Shown here: piece after piece, positions 29,258 to 39,251 of the stretch
Numbering within the stretch: position 1 is the first letter of the stretch
Layout of the letters: every line of letters starts with the position of its first letter
DNA from: Gymnothorax reevesii
Lineage: Eukaryota; Chordata; Actinopteri; Anguilliformes; Muraenidae
DNA length: 64,000 nucleotides
Direction of reading: 5' to 3'
Assembly (NCBI GenBank): GCA_029721435.1
Contig: CM056574.1
Span: forward strand, 72,645,501 to 72,709,500
Position numbers and translations under genes: made by a program
The notes under the pieces: model-generated
What the model was told of the DNA's origin: nothing
Database searches by the model: none
Seen by the model: the letters and a program-made list of their open reading frames with translations, nothing else

Positions 29258-31086
29258 AGCATGTTTTCATGAAAGTTCGGATCGCCACAGTTTCAGCGCT
29301 CGAGCGCGCTTCCTTTCAGAGATAATCGCATAATCACTCGAATTCAGTCATATAGTCACAATTCACTCAAGTTTTTCACTTTCCCACTGGGTTACACACA
29401 GAATGGACATTTTTGACAAGCAAAACAAAAAAAAAAGAAAGTTTTTGAAAAAGTGCATATCTTCACTTCAGAAGCTTCTATTCACTTCCAAATGGCCATA
29501 AAAGCCATTGGACCAAACGATACCATATACGCATTGCACTGTGATCTGAAGCTGTTCCCAGGCCAGAAACACGCTCAGATTCACGTTCTGAGCTTAAAAC
29601 CTCAAAGAAGCGTGTTTTCAGGAAAGCACGTATAGCCACAGTTTCAGCGCTCTAGCGCGCTTCCTTACAGAGATACGAGCATATTCACTCCAATTCAGTA
29701 ATATAGTCACAATTCACTGAAGTTGATGACTTTCCCACTGAGTAACACACAGAATGGACATTTCTGACAAGCAAATCTAAAAAAAAGAAAGTTTTTGAAA
29801 AAGTGCATATCTTCACTTCAGAAGCTTCTATTCACTTCCAAATGGCCATAAAAGCCATTGGACCAAACGATACCATATACGCATTGCACTGTGATCTGAA
29901 GCTGTTGCCAGGCCAGAAACACGCTCAGATTCACGTTCAGAGCTTAAAACCTCAAAGAAGCATGTTTTCATGAAAGTGCGTATAGCCACAGTTTCAGCGC
30001 TCTAGCTCGCTTTCTTACAGAGATAAACGCATATTCACTCCAATTCAGTCATATTGTCACAATTCACTCAAGTTTGTCACTTTCCCACTAAGTTACACAC
30101 AGAAAGGACATTTTTGACAAGCAAAAGTAAAAAAAAGAAAGTTTTTGAAAAAGTGCATATCTTCACTTCAGAAGCTTATATTCACTTCCAAATGGCCATA
30201 CAAGCACATTGGACCAATCGATACCATATAAGCATTGCACTGTGATCTGAAGCTGTTCCCAGGCCAGAAACACGCTCAGATTCACGTTCTGAGCTTAAAA
30301 CCTCAAAGAAGCGTGTTTCCATGAAAGTGCGTATAGCCACAGTTTCAGCGCTCTAGCGCGCTTCCTTACAGAGATACGAGCATATTCACTCCAATTCAGT
30401 AATATAGTCACAATTCACTGAATTTGTTCACTTTCCAACTGGGTTACACACAGAATGGATATTTTTGACAAGCAAAATTAAAAAAAAGAAAGTTTTTGAA
30501 AAGTAAATATCTTCACTTCAGAAGGTTATATTCACTTGAAATTGGCCATACAAGCACATTGGACCAATCCATACAATATATGCAATGCACTGTGATCTGA
30601 AGCTGTTCCTTGGCCAGAAGCCCGCACAGTTTCACATTCTGACCTTAAAACTTCAAAGAAGCGTGTTTTCATGAAAGCACGTATAGCCACAGTTTCAGCG
30701 CTCTAGCGCGCTTCCTTACAGAGATAAACGCATAATCACTCGAATTCAGTCATATAGTCACAATTCACTCAAGTTTTTCACTTTCCCACTGGGTTACACA
30801 CAGAAAGGACATTTTTGACAAGCAAAACTAAAAAAAAGAAAGTTTTTGAAAAAGTGCATATCTTCACTTCAGAAGCTTCTATTCACTTCCAAATGGCCAT
30901 AAAAGCCATTGGACCAAACGATACCATATACGCATTGCACTGTGATCTGAAGCTGTTCCCAGGCCAGAAACACGCTCAGATTCACGTTCTGAGCTTAAAA
31001 CCTCAAAGAAGCGTGTTTCCATGAAAGTGCGTATAGCCACAGTTTCAGCGCTCTAGCTCGCTTTCTTACAGAGATAAACGCATATT

Positions 31087-34182: not shown

Positions 34183-34186
34183 GCGT
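34183..34186 (+). repeat. Target-site duplication, left copy (GCGT)
   Basis: The satellite reads GAAAGTGCGT up to the start of the 5' LTR. The same four bases follow the 3' LTR at 39,248-39,251, and uninterrupted monomers read GAAAGTGCGTATAGCC, so joining the flanks after removing one GCGT gives a normal monomer. A 4-bp duplication lies in the 4-6 bp range usual for retroviral-type integrases. Confidence 0.95.
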
Positions 34187-34341
34187 TGTTATGTATGATA
34201 ATTTTGTACAGCATTATATTCCATTTGTAAATGAAGTTTGTTACATGCTGTTTTGCTGCCTTGCTGGTCAGCTATATTTATTTTGTTCATTGGCACCATC
34301 TGGTGGCGTATTTGTAAAATCATTGAGAAAAGTCTAGTAAT

Positions 34342-34354
34342 TTCTAGAAGCTTC
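34342..34354 (+). promoter_or_regulatory. Perfect three-pentamer heat-shock element in U3
   Basis: TTCTAGAAGCTTC fits the HSF trimer consensus TTCnnGAAnnTTC at all nine fixed positions. It lies about 70 bp upstream of the TATA box. With equal base use, one such match is expected about 0.004 times in 465 bp on both strands, so chance is unlikely though not excluded. The identical site is at 38,938-38,950 in the 3' LTR. HSF binding is inferred from sequence only. Confidence 0.7.
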
Positions 34355-34373
34355 TGGCACTTTCCTGCTTGGA

Positions 34374-34389
34374 GGGGGCGGGATTTCCC
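34374..34389 (+). promoter_or_regulatory. GC box fused to a kB-like site
   Basis: GGGGGCGGG at 34,374-34,382 is an Sp1/KLF-type GC box. It overlaps GGGATTTCCC at 34,380-34,389, which fits the NF-kB consensus GGGRNNYYCC. Both recur in the 3' LTR (kB-like site at 38,976-38,985). They lie between the two heat-shock elements. The motif matches are visible; use by either factor family is inference. Confidence 0.5.
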
Positions 34390-34406
34390 TAGAGTCCTGT
34401 GGATCT

Positions 34407-34414
34407 TTCTGGAA
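34407..34414 (+). promoter_or_regulatory. Second, shorter heat-shock element next to TATA
   Basis: TTCTGGAA gives two correctly spaced inverted pentamers, and the following GGTTG is a third pentamer with one mismatch (TTG for TTC). It ends about 11 bp before the TATA box. Its counterpart in the 3' LTR is at 39,003-39,010. Paired HSEs close to a TATA box are the layout of classical heat-shock promoters. Confidence 0.5.
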
Positions 34415-34425
34415 GGTTGCTAGAC

Positions 34426-34434
34426 TATAAAAAG
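34426..34434 (+). promoter_or_regulatory. TATA box of the 5' LTR
   Basis: TATAAAAAG, an excellent TATA match, with GC box, kB-like and HSE motifs immediately upstream and a purine-rich leader downstream. It should direct pol II to start about 25-30 bp further on, near 34,455. The same box in the 3' LTR is at 39,022-39,030. Confidence 0.85.
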
Positions 34435-34457
34435 GCTGTGATTTTAAGCACAGCAGA

Positions 34458-34491
34458 GACAGACAACAAAGAGAGACAGACAACAAAGAGA
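34458..34491 (+). repeat. 17-bp tandem duplication private to the 5' LTR
   Basis: GACAGACAACAAAGAGA occurs twice in direct succession (34,458-34,474 and 34,475-34,491), but only once in the 3' LTR. It accounts exactly for the 17-bp length difference between the LTRs. Since both LTRs are normally made from one template in a transposition cycle, it probably arose after or during integration. It lies in the predicted start of R, just after the inferred transcription start. Confidence 0.95.
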
Positions 34492-34607
34492 GCAGACAGC
34501 AGAAGAGAGCAGACCAGAGTTTTGTTTTGGCAACAGTTAAATAGTGGCAGAGTGTTATTTGCTGATTTAAATCGTGGATATTCTTTTGTTCAATTTTTTT
34601 TGTAAAG

Positions 34608-34613
34608 AATAAA
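34608..34613 (+). terminator. Polyadenylation signal in the 5' LTR
   Basis: AATAAA followed by T/G-rich sequence (TTTGTTTTAGTTGTACTTG begins a few bases on), the usual arrangement of cleavage and polyadenylation signals. The functional copy for the genomic transcript would be the one in the 3' LTR. Confidence 0.75.
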
Positions 34614-34668
34614 TTTGTTTTAGTTGTACTTGCCAGTTTTTTTGTTGTGATTTTTCCAAGTCATAACA

Positions 34669-34746
34669 AATTGGAGGTTCCACCGAGATTGGATTCACCG
34701 AAGATTATTATTTTAAATCTTTTGACTAGTTTAAAAACCAGCAATC
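34669..34746 (+). other. Untranslated leader between 5' LTR and gag-pol
   Basis: These 78 bases hold the primer binding site and a short A/T-rich segment. A TAA at 34,732-34,734 is in frame with the gag-pol ATG, so the reading frame cannot start earlier. I see no separate packaging hairpin by eye. Confidence 0.85.
34672..34690 (+). promoter_or_regulatory. Primer binding site for tRNA-Gln
   Basis: TGGAGGTTCCACCGAGATT, three bases after the LTR end, is complementary over 19 bases to the 3' end of vertebrate tRNA-Gln including its CCA, as I remember that tRNA. The tRNA would prime minus-strand DNA synthesis. A search of all host tRNAs would settle the assignment. Confidence 0.85.
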
Positions 34747-35139
34747 ATGACTTTTGATGTGGAAAGTTTTTTGAAAACTCCAACCCAGGAATTAATTTTG
34801 TTGGCAAAGAAGAAGGACTTGCTACAAATAGCCTCAACCCTTGGATTATCTGATGTGAAGTCATCAATGAAGAAACAAGAAATATTCAACATTTTGGTGC
34901 AACATTTCATCGATGAAGATATCTTTGGGGAAGAAGCAGCAGAATTAATTAAAGCTGTGGAGGTGCCTGCAACGGAGCTGCAAAGGCTTGAATTCCAGCT
35001 GCGCCAAAAACAACTAGAGCTGGAAGAGAGAAGGTTGGAGAGGGAGAAGGAGAGAGAACTGGAGGAAAGAAGGATGGAGAAAGAGAGAGAACTAGAAGAA
35101 AAAAGGATGCAGTTCGAATTGGAAATGAAGAAAATAGAA
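34747..35139 (+). other. Gag N-terminal region: SAP-like helices and charged coiled coil
   Basis: Residues about 10-55 are helical and leucine-rich, with a LLQIASTLGLSD stretch that recalls SAP-type helix-turn-helix folds. Residues 77-131 are almost only E, R, K, L, Q and M, with repeated EERR and EREKE motifs, and should form a long coiled coil for multimerisation. The DNA of this part is imperfectly repetitive (GAGAGAA/GGAGAAG), so its length could vary between copies. The SAP comparison is tentative. Confidence 0.6.
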
Positions 35140-38100
35140 GCAGGTACTGTTCCAAAATCACTTGGACTTTCTGATCATTTTGATGTGGTTAAGCATATCA
35201 GACTTGTTCCTCCTTTCTTAGAAAATGATGTTGACCAATACTTTACCCATTTTGAAAAAATTGCTGAAAATTTGAAATGGCCAAAAGAGCATTGGACAAT
35301 GATGTTACAAAGTGTTCTTACTGGTAAAGCTAGAAAAATCTATAACCAGTTATCTGTCCAACAGTGTGCTGATTATGATTTTGTCAAATCTGCCATTCTG
35401 AAGGGTTATGAATTAGTCCCTGAGGCTTACAGGCAAAAATTTAGGAATTCTTGCAAGGAAGCCAGTCAAACTCATGTTGAATTTGGCAGGTTAAAGGAAC
35501 AGTTGTTTGATCAGTGGTGTAATTCCATGAAAGTTGAAAAAGATTTTGATAGAATGAGGCAACTTATTCTGGTTGAGGAATTCAAAAGGTGTGTCCAGCC
35601 TGATATTAAGATTTTCCTTGAAGAAAAACAAGCCAATACTTTGCAAGATGTTTCTACCCTAGCTGATAGTTATGCATTGACTCACAAGTCTTCTTTTGTG
35701 CAAAAATCCACTTTTTCTAAATTTCAAAGCAAGTTTCAGTCCAAGACTTCTTCTAATAACACTTCTAATGATTCTAAGGCCACTTCTGAAAGGAAACCTT
35801 CCAGGGAGAAGCAATCCTCTGATTCTTTACCCTCTGTGTCTTGCCATTACTGCAAAAAGCAAGGTCACCTTATTTCTGAGTGTTATGCTCTCAAGAAAAA
35901 ACAACAACGAGAAGAAACCAAGCCAACTGCTTTGACAAAGAGAGAATCTCTTTTATCAAAGGTCAGTTCACCTGATCTTCTACCTTCTGTGTCTGATCCG
36001 GTTATGGAGGGTTTTGAGCCATTCATCACCGATGGTTCTGTCTCACTTTCACATGATTTTTCCTCATCTGCTCCTGTTCGAATTCTAAGGGATACTGGGT
36101 CTTCCCAATCTCTTATTCTTGCAGATATTCTGCCTTTCTCGGACAAATCGTCTACTCAGGCTAATGTCCTTATTCAAGGAGTAGAATGTGGTTTTACAAG
36201 TGTATCTCTCCATAATGTTCATCTCAAATCAGACTTGGTCTCTGGGCCTGTTACTGTTGGTGTTCGGTCTTCTCTTCCTTTCAAAGGCATTCATTTGCTT
36301 CTTGGTAATGATCTTGCTGGGGATAAGGTCGTACCCTACCCTATTGTAACTGACACTCCTTTGATTCATCAAGAATCTGACTCTATAGAGGAGGAAATTC
36401 CAGACCTCTATCCTTCATGTGCAGTTACTCGTTCTATGGCCAAAAAGCCTATTCAGGATGTTGCTGACCTGGACTTTAACCTGGCTGACACCTTCATTGG
36501 GCAGTCTTTTCATCAGGAACCTTCCAGTCCTGAGATGTCTGGGAAATCTTCAGACTTGTCCTTGTCAGGTCATTCTAATGAAATTTTGTCTCGTAAACAA
36601 CTTATTCATGAGCAACAACAAGCTCGTGATCTAGCGCATCTTCTACCTCAGGCTGCAAGTGAACAAGAGGCTACTCAAGTTCCTGTCTGTTTTTACTACA
36701 AAAATGGTGTGCTTATGAGAAAGTGGCGTCCACCTGATGTTCCTGCAGATGAAGAGTGGATGATCACCCATCAAATTGTTCTTCCAAAGTCTTATCTTCA
36801 AGAAACTCTTAGTCTGGCCCATGACAATCCTATGTCAGGTCATTTGGGTATCAAGAAGACCCTTCAACGTGTCAGAAACCATTTCTTCTGGCCTTCTATG
36901 AGGTCTGATGTGCAGGAGTACTGCAAATCCTGTCATACTTGTCAAATGGTTGGGAAGCCGAACCAGAATATTCCAAAGGCTCGACTTAAGCCCATTCCCA
37001 CTTTTGAAGAACCTGTCAGTCGGATCATCATTGACTGTGTTGGACCATTGCCGAAGACTAGGTCTGGTTGTGAGTACTTACTGACTATCATGTGTGCTTC
37101 CACTCGGTTTCCTGAGGCAATTCCACTTCGTAATATCAAGGCGAAGACTATCATCAAGGCTCTAACCAAGTTTTTCTGCTTAGTTAGTCTTCCTAAGTCT
37201 ATTCAGTCTGATCAAGGATCAAATTTCATGTCTGGCATATTTCAACAAGTTATGCATGACCTTGGTATTAAACAATACAGGTCATCAGCTTACCATCCTG
37301 AGAGTCAAGGTGCTTTGGAGAGGTTCCATCAAACCCTGAAGAACATGATAAGGACCTACTGCCTTGACACAGAGAAAGATTGGGATGAAGGTGTCCATCT
37401 TCTTCTGTTTGCTGCCCGTGAAGCTGTTCAGGAGTCTCTTGGGTTCAGTCCTTTTGAGCTCGTTTTTGGGCATACAGTCCGTGGACCTCTGAAGCTACTG
37501 AAGGAAAAGTTGCTCGCTAAAGATGATGTCCCAATGAACTTGCTTCAGTATGTCTCTGACTTCCGTAATCGTCTCTCTAAAGCCTGTGACTTTGCTAAGT
37601 CTAATCTCAAAGAAGCTCAGGGCAAAATGAAAGCCAGATATGACCTTCATTCAAAAGATAGAAGTTTTAAAACTGGTGACAAAGTTCTTGCACTTTTGCC
37701 AGTTCCTGGAAACCCTCTAAGAGCCCGATATTTCGGCCCTTACACTGTCCTCAAAAAGGTCAGTGATCTAAATTACATAATTTCAACTCCTGGAAGGAGG
37801 AAACAAAAACAAATGTGTCACATCAACATGCTGAAAGAATACATTGATAGAGGCACTCAGCAAAAGCCAGTCAATGTGGTAAATACAGTTGAACTGGAAA
37901 ATTCCGAAGATTGTGACTGCCCCTTCGAAAATGAACAGGGTCAAGTCAAACCAGTTGATGCAAAAGTCAAAGTTATCACTGAATTTCCTGAGCCAACAAC
38001 TAAAAGACAGCTCATGAGATTTCTAGGGATGGCTGGCTACTACAGAAAATTCTGTAAAAATTTCTCTATCATCTCTGAACCTTTGACAACTTTACTGAAG

Positions 38101-38580
38101 AAAAATGAAAAATTTGTTTGGGATGAAAAATGTCAAAATTCGTTTGACCAGCTAAAAGCTATTCTCAAAAATGCACCAGTTCTCTTATCTCCCAATTTCA
38201 AAAAGGAGTTCAAGTTGGCAGTTGATGACAGTGACATTGGTGCAGGTGCAGTTTTACTGCAAGAAGACAGTGATGGAGTAGATCATCCTGTTTGTTACTT
38301 TTCCAAAAAGTTTGATAAACATCAGAAAAACTACTCAACAATTGAAAAAGAATGTTTGGCACTTGTTTTGGCTTTACAACATTTTGAAGTCTATTTGACT
38401 TGTTCAGCTACTTCCATCAAGGTCTTCAGTGATCACAATCCCCTCACATTCTTGCACAAGATCAAAAACAAGAATCAAAGATTACTGAGATGGAGTTTAC
38501 TTTTGCAAGAGTATGATTTGGACATTTCTCACATCAGGGGAAAAGATAATGTAATCCCAGATACACTTTCACGCATGTAA
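34747..38580 (+). CDS. Gag-Pol polyprotein, Gmr1-like order, RT core deleted (1,277 aa)
   Basis: One uninterrupted ORF encodes the structural and enzymatic proteins of the element. In order: helical N-terminus and Glu/Arg-rich coiled coil (to about 131), SCAN-like Gag (about 222-310), CCHC knuckle (366-379), aspartic protease with DTGSS at 449-453, integrase with HHCC (H692, H699, C729, C732), D763-D822-E858 and GPY at 997-999, a reverse transcriptase C-terminal remnant (from about 1065) and RNase H (D1160, E1202, D1229, D1272). No frameshift or stop separates gag from pol. The ATG has A at -3 and an in-frame stop 15 nt upstream. Reverse transcriptase motifs (the catalytic YxDD palm and the upstream fingers) are absent both after the protease and after the integrase, so the protein cannot copy RNA by itself. 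The order IN before RT/RNase H marks the Gmr1-like lineage. Confidence 0.95.
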   Translation: MTFDVESFLKTPTQELILLAKKKDLLQIASTLGLSDVKSSMKKQEIFNILVQHFIDEDIFGEEAAELIKAVEVPATELQRLEFQLRQKQLELEERRLEREKERELEERRMEKERELEEKRMQFELEMKKIEAGTVPKSLGLSDHFDVVKHIRLVPPFLENDVDQYFTHFEKIAENLKWPKEHWTMMLQSVLTGKARKIYNQLSVQQCADYDFVKSAILKGYELVPEAYRQKFRNSCKEASQTHVEFGRLKEQLFDQWCNSMKVEKDFDRMRQLILVEEFKRCVQPDIKIFLEEKQANTLQDVSTLADSYALTHKSSFVQKSTFSKFQSKFQSKTSSNNTSNDSKATSERKPSREKQSSDSLPSVSCHYCKKQGHLISECYALKKKQQREETKPTALTKRESLLSKVSSPDLLPSVSDPVMEGFEPFITDGSVSLSHDFSSSAPVRILRDTGSSQSLILADILPFSDKSSTQANVLIQGVECGFTSVSLHNVHLKSDLVSGPVTVGVRSSLPFKGIHLLLGNDLAGDKVVPYPIVTDTPLIHQESDSIEEEIPDLYPSCAVTRSMAKKPIQDVADLDFNLADTFIGQSFHQEPSSPEMSGKSSDLSLSGHSNEILSRKQLIHEQQQARDLAHLLPQAASEQEATQVPVCFYYKNGVLMRKWRPPDVPADEEWMITHQIVLPKSYLQETLSLAHDNPMSGHLGIKKTLQRVRNHFFWPSMRSDVQEYCKSCHTCQMVGKPNQNIPKARLKPIPTFEEPVSRIIIDCVGPLPKTRSGCEYLLTIMCASTRFPEAIPLRNIKAKTIIKALTKFFCLVSLPKSIQSDQGSNFMSGIFQQVMHDLGIKQYRSSAYHPESQGALERFHQTLKNMIRTYCLDTEKDWDEGVHLLLFAAREAVQESLGFSPFELVFGHTVRGPLKLLKEKLLAKDDVPMNLLQYVSDFRNRLSKACDFAKSNLKEAQGKMKARYDLHSKDRSFKTGDKVLALLPVPGNPLRARYFGPYTVLKKVSDLNYIISTPGRRKQKQMCHINMLKEYIDRGTQQKPVNVVNTVELENSEDCDCPFENEQGQVKPVDAKVKVITEFPEPTTKRQLMRFLGMAGYYRKFCKNFSIISEPLTTLLKKNEKFVWDEKCQNSFDQLKAILKNAPVLLSPNFKKEFKLAVDDSDIGAGAVLLQEDSDGVDHPVCYFSKKFDKHQKNYSTIEKECLALVLALQHFEVYLTCSATSIKVFSDHNPLTFLHKIKNKNQRLLRWSLLLQEYDLDISHIRGKDNVIPDTLSRM
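35410..35676 (+). other. SCAN-like Gag capsid C-terminal domain
   Basis: Residues about 222-310 contain YRQKFR, then a helix with FGRLKEQLFDQWC, LILVEEFKRCVQPDIK and TLQDVSTLADSY. This order resembles vertebrate SCAN domains (YRxxFR, the conserved L-EQF segment and the terminal ALxLxE-type helix). Published work derived SCAN domains from Gmr1-like Gag, so the likeness supports the classification. The domain should mediate Gag dimerisation in the particle. Confidence 0.75.
35842..35883 (+). other. Gag nucleocapsid CCHC zinc knuckle
   Basis: C366-x2-C369-x4-H374-x4-C379, the exact retroviral zinc-knuckle spacing, embedded in a Lys/Ser-rich stretch. It would bind the element RNA for packaging. 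Only one knuckle is present. Confidence 0.93.
36049..36336 (+). other. Aspartic protease domain
   Basis: D449-T-G-S-S within ILRDTGSSQSLIL is the active-site loop, and LLLGNDLAG near residues 517-525 corresponds to the conserved second hydrophobic-Gly motif of retropepsins. It would release mature Gag and Pol proteins after dimerising. All key residues are present. Confidence 0.88.
36781..37746 (+). other. Integrase: HHCC, DD35E core and GPY/F module
   Basis: H692-x6-H699-x29-C729-x2-C732 is the zinc-binding domain. D763, D822 and E858, with 58 and 35 residues between them, form a complete DD35E catalytic triad. RYFGPY at 994-999 belongs to the C-terminal GPY/F module. I see no chromodomain after it. 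Everything needed for strand transfer seems intact, in agreement with the clean target duplication. It follows the protease region directly, where canonical Ty3/gypsy elements would have reverse transcriptase. Confidence 0.93.
37921..37945 (+). other. In-frame deletion scar where the RT core should be
   Basis: Residues about 1059-1065 (PFENEQG) join a post-integrase linker to GQVKPVDAKV, which normally follows the RT catalytic palm and connection in this family. The roughly 200-250 residues with the fingers and the YxDD palm are absent, and the frame is kept. The exact breakpoint can only be set by alignment with an intact relative. Confidence 0.8.
37939..38577 (+). other. RT C-terminal remnant plus complete RNase H
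   Basis: LMRFLGMAGYYRKF near 1089-1102 is the conserved thumb/connection motif that lies just before RNase H in Ty3/gypsy elements. RNase H follows with D1160 (VDDSDIGAGAVL), E1202 (IEKECLAL), D1229 (FSDHNPLTFL) and D1272 (DTLSRM). All four acidic residues are in place. The second residue after D1160 is D in place of the usual A in DAS, which should be tolerated. Confidence 0.88.
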
Positions 38581-38770: not shown

Positions 38771-38782
38771 AAAGAGGGGAGG
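38771..38782 (+). promoter_or_regulatory. Polypurine tract
   Basis: AAAGAGGGGAGG ends directly at the 3' LTR. Such a purine run resists RNase H and primes plus-strand synthesis. Position and composition are typical. Confidence 0.9.
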
Positions 38783-38937
38783 TGTTATGTATGATAATTT
38801 TGTACAGCATTATATTCCATTTGTAAATGAAGTTTGTTACATGCTGTTTTGCTGCCTTGCTGGTCAGCTATATTTATTTTGTTCATTGGCACCATCTGGT
38901 GGCGTATTTGTAAAATCATTGAGAAAAGTCTAGTAAT

Positions 38938-38950
38938 TTCTAGAAGCTTC
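38938..38950 (+). promoter_or_regulatory. Heat-shock element of the 3' LTR
   Basis: TTCTAGAAGCTTC, identical to the site in the 5' LTR. If active, this copy could drive read-through transcripts into satellite DNA from 39,248 onward whenever the AATAAA downstream is bypassed. Confidence 0.65.
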
Positions 38951-39021
38951 TGGCACTTTCCTGCTTGGAGGGGGCGGGATTTCCCTAGAGTCCTGTGGAT
39001 CTTTCTGGAAGGTTGCTAGAC

Positions 39022-39030
39022 TATAAAAAG
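39022..39030 (+). promoter_or_regulatory. TATA box of the 3' LTR
   Basis: TATAAAAAG, same context as in the 5' LTR. A start near 39,050 would give a short LTR transcript or a read-through satellite transcript. Confidence 0.75.
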
Positions 39031-39186
39031 GCTGTGATTTTGAGCACAGCAGAGACAGACAACAAAGAGAGCAGACAGCAGAAGAGAGCAGACCAGAGTT
39101 TTGTTTTGGCAACAGTTAAATAGTGGCAGAGTGTTATTTGCTGATTTAAATCGTGGATATTCTTTTGTTCAATTTTTTTTGTAAAG

Positions 39187-39192
39187 AATAAA
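39187..39192 (+). terminator. Polyadenylation signal of the element transcript
   Basis: AATAAA with T/G-rich sequence downstream, before the LTR end at 39,247. It should end the genomic RNA. Confidence 0.8.
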
Positions 39193-39247
39193 TTTGTTTT
39201 AGTTGTACTTGCCAGTTTTTTTGTTGTGATTTTTCCAAGTCATAACA

Positions 39248-39251
39248 GCGT
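39248..39251 (+). repeat. Target-site duplication, right copy (GCGT)
   Basis: GCGT directly after CATAACA, continuing as ATAGCCACAG, the normal satellite sequence. It pairs with the copy at 34,183-34,186. Confidence 0.95.

Follow-up and report, generated by a model that had tools for sequence, protein, structure and literature searches.

The window (the whole 64,000-nucleotide stretch analysed here) is made up almost entirely of tandem satellite DNA in ~350-bp units, which occupies positions 1-34186 and 39248-64000 and is interrupted by one LTR retrotransposon (Table 1). The two LTRs of this element differ by a single substitution and 17 gap columns, and its insertion is therefore recent. Both kinds of difference lie downstream of the TATA box; the whole promoter is thus intact in both LTRs, and HSE-A, HSE-B and the TATA box are present in each, as the preliminary description had stated. 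The complement of the primer binding site probably resembles the 3' end of animal tRNA-Gln. Among the LTR segments compared, the 17-bp repeats (34455-34514 versus 39046-39093) have the highest mean mismatch. The surrounding satellite carries 163 two-unit HSE-like matches (TTCATGAA, 72; GAAGCTTC, 66; TTCAGGAA, 23; and two others) and one three-unit HSE-like match, at 29266. Transcription of satellite DNA driven by HSF1 is known from human cells.

Table 1. Features of the retrotransposon and its promoter (window coordinates)
Feature	Position	Strand	Remarks
Target duplication GCGT	34183-34186 and 39248-39251		4 bp; flanks both LTRs
5' LTR	34187-34668	+	482 bp, TG...CA
HSE-A array	34342-34364	+	perfect TTCnnGAAnnTTC 34342-34354, then in register GCA 34357-34359 and TTC 34362-34364
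GC box and kB-like site	34374-34389	+	GGGCGG 34376-34381 and GGGATTTCCC 34380-34389; between the two HSEs
HSE-B	34402-34419	+	GAT-TTC-GAA-TTG, two units perfect (34407-34414)
TATA box	34426-34433	+	TATAAAAA
17-bp tandem repeats	34455-34514	+	shortly past predicted start site; copy number unequal between the two LTRs
Polyadenylation signal	34608-34613	+	AATAAA
Primer binding site (PBS)	34672-34692	+	read by eye
Single open frame	34747-38580	+	1277 aa; domain search done in pieces
SCAN domain, Gag part	35419-35688	+	E 3.4e-11
Integrase	36784-37299	+	H2C2 zinc-binding domain and rve core
Junction	37936-37944	+	most of reverse transcriptase missing, in frame; position good to a few bases
RNase H	38194-38514	+	E 1.1e-35
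Polypurine tract (PPT)	38771-38782	+
3' LTR	38783-39247	+	465 bp

We take the element to be putatively Gmr1-like, a label adopted from the preliminary description. Several features agree with membership in this group of Ty3-type elements. First, LTRs, a target duplication, a PBS and a PPT are all present. Second, the Gag is SCAN-like, and relatives also contain PF02023. Third, the domains along the open frame run from SCAN-type Gag through integrase to RNase H, so that integrase precedes RNase H; the order of integrase before reverse transcriptase (RT) and RNase H is the hallmark of Gmr1. No RT domain match is found in the window copy, the frame of which leads from the C-terminal end of integrase into the final portion of RT, followed by RNase H.

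Comparison of the RT region (window 37744-38577) with pieces from nine sister copies picked by LTR spacing, six short and three long, reveals that the same loss is shared. All three long copies (L115-L117) match an RT piece. Four of the six short copies (L111, L112, L118 and L119) cross the RT junction of the window directly, within a few bases of alignment, and the other two (L113 and L114) retain ~160 and ~240 bases at the junction with no RT match and represent other partial RT losses. Since separate insertions have the same junction, the RT-less form, which retains Gag, integrase and RNase H, must have multiplied in its own right, presumably with RT supplied by full copies. Spacing between LTRs in 32 pairs on contig C1, paired by hand from the flanking-anchor list described below with other C1 sites and one opposite-strand pair omitted, is at most 4863 bp in 18 pairs, 5166-5461 bp in 12, and ~7 kb in two. 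The LTRs of 11 fetched pairs and of the window pair differ by 0-8 substitutions in 465-486 aligned bases, and these copies are therefore young. A search of viral contigs confirmed no relative and found no exact 23-base match, a search of genome contigs recovered two partial related loci, neither with a usable LTR pair, and the Gag search yielded no named relative among the best 120 matches listed. Gmr1-like integrase genes are present on contigs filed under a Heimdallarchaeota MAG (L109 and L110), and these contigs are probably eukaryotic contamination.

The U3 promoter contains the three elements that had been reported for it. A perfect three-pentamer HSE, TTCTAGAAGCTTC, is located exactly at 34342-34354; its only other exact match in the window is at 38938-38950 in the 3' LTR. 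Allowing up to two mismatches gives four matches in the window against 3.47 expected, so that only the exact match is remarkable. The unit register continues beyond the perfect site, with GCA matching at two of three bases, TTC at all three, and an imperfect upstream GTA (34337-34339) at two of three; across the five-unit array, 14 of 15 bases match. The second HSE, described earlier as two pentamers with a near-third, corresponds to TTCTGGAAGGTTG at 34407-34419 (HSE-B), and its equivalent in the 3' LTR starts, by offset, at 39003. The TATA box begins at 34426, as proposed, with the HSE-A array starting 84 bp and HSE-B 19 bp upstream of it. Both HSEs thus lie within ~100 bp upstream of the TATA box, and two HSF sites near a TATA box is the layout of a heat-shock promoter. 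The earlier characterization of the LTR as built like such a promoter stands for its anatomy and for its presence in the copies examined, but the design is not a pure one: the HSEs are not the sole main upstream elements, as the LTR also contains what we take to be a GC box and a kB-like site. A further motif near 34361-34367 is presumably ETS-like.

The preliminary description expected the first site about 0.004 times per LTR, and shuffling gives similar rates. Dinucleotide shuffling of the 239 bp that precede the TATA box yields a perfect three-unit site in 108 of 50000 cases, and shuffling of the whole LTR does so in 123 of 20000; a three-unit site with a further dimer arises in seven of 50000. 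The HSE was picked after the sequence had been viewed and is one of many factor motifs that could have been chosen, and the shuffle rates given here are uncorrected for that choice. When the same 5-bp register is required, shuffles as good as the LTR number 36 of 20000 for three units, three of 8000 for four units (11 of 12 bases), none of 8000 for five (14 of 15) and none of 20000 for six (16 of 18). One alternative is that other factors, acting through the GC box, the ETS-like motif and the TATA box, account for conservation of the promoter block, and that its likeness to HSEs is incidental. The post hoc choice of motif favors this explanation, whereas the extended register, which goes far beyond the shuffles, speaks against it, and overall we consider it unlikely. 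Conservation in other copies is a more independent test than the shuffles.

Copies were sought within the window's own genome (2.17 Gb in 421 contigs). Absence of the HSE from other genomic copies had been named in advance as a result that would refute a heat-shock promoter; within this genome, HSE-A is instead perfect in 40 of 41 close LTRs and in all 30 copies picked at the PPT/U3 junction. The close LTRs comprise the two of the window and 39 fetched from the 40 matches that were scored out of 1976 candidates, the fortieth being the window's own 5' LTR; the matches were picked by whole-LTR likeness and are 95-100% alike. The exception for HSE-A has lost 10 bp (L047); the HSE-B dimer is retained in 41 of 41 and the kB-like site in 40 of 41, and TATAAAA is present in 27 of 41, the remainder having other forms, chiefly TATATAAAG. 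Four of the LTR copies (L029, L030, L037 and L038; G000 C5:1473000-1985800) have identical flanks and span ~0.5 Mb, and are probably one insertion in a duplicated segment. An anchor made of the PPT and the first LTR bases, which is blind to the HSE, identifies 683 sites (reversed control, 0), and the first 30 of these, all on C1, contain HSE-A in 30, a second dimer in 26, a TATA box in 28 and the kB-like site in 27. Flanking anchors of 11 bases on either side of HSE-A identify 849 sites; among the first 100 listed, mostly on contig C1, all nine HSE-A core bases are present in 97 by hand count. The three exceptions are one with AAA for GAA and two adjacent sites with TTT for TTC, the latter probably the LTRs of one element.

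Parsimony over 66 distinct rows not picked by HSE, with gaps such as the 10 bp of HSE-A lost in L047 left out of the counts, yields no changes at the 15 positions of the five-unit array, and 307 of 100000 random sets are as low; for the nine HSE-A positions alone the figure is 3294 of 100000. The HSE-B core alone does not stand out in these young rows (63145 of 100000), nor do the HSE-A and HSE-B cores combined (11642 of 100000, or 9637 when the HSE-B edge units are added). In a larger set of 88 rows, 80 of which keep the HSE-B dimer, the figures are 23545 of 100000 for the HSE-B core and 5329 for its 12 unit positions (four units), the comb ranking 15th of 89. The idea that HSE-B is under constraint of its own in young copies is thus rejected, as it is significant in neither the 66-row nor the 88-row test, and the unremarkable HSE-B core here is a point in favor of conservation for other factors. 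Retention of the HSEs in young copies owes much to recent common ancestry. It could even be that the sites are functionless and that an HSE which arose by chance in a single master element was spread by recent amplification, as the few substitutions between the paired LTRs would allow.

Older copies provide evidence against so simple an origin. The exact HSE-A 13-mer occurs 1588 times in the genome, compared with 14 for the reversed control, and of the first 30 sites, which are all on C1, 27 belong to this LTR family, at 70-96% identity in matched stretches. Nine of these 27 copies exceed 90% identity and 18 fall below it; as all were picked by the HSE-A 13-mer, they inform on HSE-B only. Two LTRs of one element above 90% identity (L050 and L051) have lost a base of the HSE-B TTC, HSE-B is deleted in the L076/L077 element, and in L058 and L062 a deletion or rearrangement has removed it. 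With these last four left out because the HSE-B stretch is deleted or rearranged, 14 of the 18 copies below 90% and the window have one minor base in total across the six strict HSE-B core columns, and eight, two, six and zero minor bases at spacer columns 34410, 34411, 34415 and 34416, respectively.

An anchor in U5 that is typical of old copies and makes no use of the HSE identifies 1175 sites (reversed control, 0). Six of the first 40 were dropped for want of a recognisable U3 promoter (L146, L159, L162, L167, L173 and L175), leaving 34 pieces that hold the promoter, which is 65-80% identical to that of the window, with a median of 74%. A perfect HSE-A is present in 14 of these pieces; another 14 have one mismatch in it, four have two and one has five, and in one piece it is gapped, giving at most one mismatch in 28 of 34. 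For the HSE-B dimer, 29 pieces are perfect and five have one mismatch. A perfect three-unit HSE is found somewhere in the piece in 19 of 34 old copies, compared with 0.0035 per shuffled row (base shuffle), and in some of them the complete three-unit site is HSE-B. Recovery of HSEs in old copies found without using them makes a chance HSE in one master copy highly improbable, as does the restriction of HSE differences between groups of copies to the spacers (see below). The exact kB-like 10-mer GGGATTTCCC is present in only one of the 40 old pieces and is therefore not a common core of the design, which disfavors an HIV-like, mainly kB-driven promoter.

Within the old copies, conservation of the HSE-A core does not exceed that of its neighbours (0.907 versus 0.905; 51758 of 100000), so that no selection acting on old, dead copies is evident at this site; the same result counts in favor of conservation for other factors. 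Against that explanation, the HSE-B core is conserved above the level of the block (271 of 100000). For the two cores combined the figure is 8794 of 100000. Comparison of majority bases per column in three groups bears on the same question: the 66 distinct young rows, not picked by HSE, and the old rows divided by base 34419 into 20 with G and 14 with C, a split that forces a difference at 34419, which is placed in neither the core nor the spacer set. Differences in some group occur at 32 of the 126 promoter columns. None of the 15 strict core columns differs, compared with four of the eight spacer columns (hypergeometric 0.009 versus the block, Fisher 0.008), and the young-versus-old comparison alone again gives 0 of 15 (hypergeometric 0.021) and 4 of 8 (Fisher 0.008). 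Taken site by site, the comparison is not significant (HSE-A, 0.065; HSE-B, 0.165). This contrast of core and spacer, at a 5-bp register across both sites, is not expected if the block is conserved for other factors. Elsewhere, the kB-like site differs in 3 of 10 columns, the GC box in 1 of 8 and the TATA box in 2 of 6; as plain counts, kB-like and TATA columns vary more than the HSE core. The overall pattern would fit selection during the active period of the element and, once copies had died, their neutral decay.

Judged from sequence, there is about an even chance that this Gmr1-like element has an HSF-responsive LTR promoter. HSF1 trimers, freed by heat or by other protein-damaging stress, would bind HSE-A and HSE-B and raise LTR transcription, so that element RNA would burst when the host is stressed; the GC box may lend basal activity, and every new copy would bring a ready-made HSE into the genome. 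The main rival explanation is that HSFs bind the array in the unstressed germ line or embryo, through an HSF1/HSF2-type activity, with heat being secondary. It accounts for the sites equally well, their evidence being identical under both, and it is in such tissue that transposition must occur if new copies are to be inherited. HSF family members have reported roles in spermatogenesis, including HSF1 and HSF2 on multicopy sex-chromosome genes, and HSF5 is reported to prefer a single GAA unit (PMC11059408), so that a multi-unit array would fit HSF1/HSF2 better. However, predicted three-unit and four-unit arrays in plant LTRs are tied to heat response (PMC5059998), which favors stress, and we regard a primarily germ-line or embryonic role as rather unlikely.

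LTR heat promoters, as in ONSEN, and HSF1-bound retroviral LTRs are already known from published accounts. The closest likeness of a proposed HSF-responsive promoter in the present element is to ONSEN/COPIA78 and other Brassicaceae copia elements (COPIA37, TERESTRA and ROMANIAT5), which are heat-responsive and whose LTRs carry multi-unit HSF sites, in their case of three and four units (PMC3907296, PMC5059998). Here too an HSF site of at least three units lies in the LTR and is common to family members, although partly decayed in old copies. Unlike the present element, ONSEN is a plant element of the Copia superfamily, and HSFA2 binding and heat induction have been shown for it, whereas the sites here are predicted. 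Avoidance of CpG as in ONSEN is rejected: the window LTR contains three CpG, and its depletion is not LTR-specific (observed/expected 0.20, versus 0.24 in the open frame of the element). The HIV-1 LTR has Sp1 sites. It is also bound by HSF1 and by NF-kB (PMC9157408), and a kB-like site is likewise present in the window LTR, but HIV-1 is a retrovirus and the exact kB-like 10-mer is rare in old pieces of this family. In bovine leukaemia virus (BLV), HSF1 activates the LTR via an HSE in U3 (PMC10236774), but BLV is again a retrovirus rather than a Ty3-type retrotransposon and has a single short site, TTTCCCGAAA. Caenorhabditis Helitrons are a mobile family that spreads HSEs through a genome (PMC6927752), as here, but they are DNA transposons and their HSEs do not form an LTR promoter.

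The preliminary description knew of no established vertebrate Gmr1-like example. That statement holds to the extent that no LTR retrotransposon with an HSE promoter, whether Gmr1-like or otherwise from a vertebrate, was recognised in titles, abstract openings and passages of the open-licence papers listed; however, HSF1-responsive HSEs have been published for mammalian retroviral LTRs (BLV, PMC10236774; HIV, PMC9157408). Frog Gmr1-like elements, also of Ty3 type, differ in expression by tissue, and the main text of that report does not contain the term "heat shock" (PMC4131045). Likewise, "hsf" and "gypsy" are absent from the main text of a report on transposable elements in heat-stressed Antarctic fish (PMC12834978).

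In plants, LTR retrotransposons driven by heat are understood in detail. A Ty3-type family built along these lines, having a defined promoter and young copies, would allow stress-driven transposition to be tested in a different kind of host. On a broader view, still drawn from sequence, it is possible, if somewhat doubtful as a whole, that a Ty3-type lineage has retained an HSF promoter across several groups of copies and has sown more than 1000 perfect three-unit HSEs in its host genome (an extrapolation from the 1588 exact 13-mers and the 27 of the first 30 that lie in this LTR), so that heat stress would set off its bursts and possibly act on nearby host genes, with an RT-less derivative running on the same promoter. 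The family would then be a source of ready-made heat-responsive sites, given the excess of exact 13-mers over the reversed control.

One HSE-A spacer position is itself variable among copies. At 34346, the second spacer base, replacement of A by C gives TTCTCGAA and places a CpG within the HSE, and methylation there might modulate HSF binding. This column departs from the window base in 28% of 39 close LTRs, and 12 of the 30 copies picked at the PPT/U3 junction have the C form.
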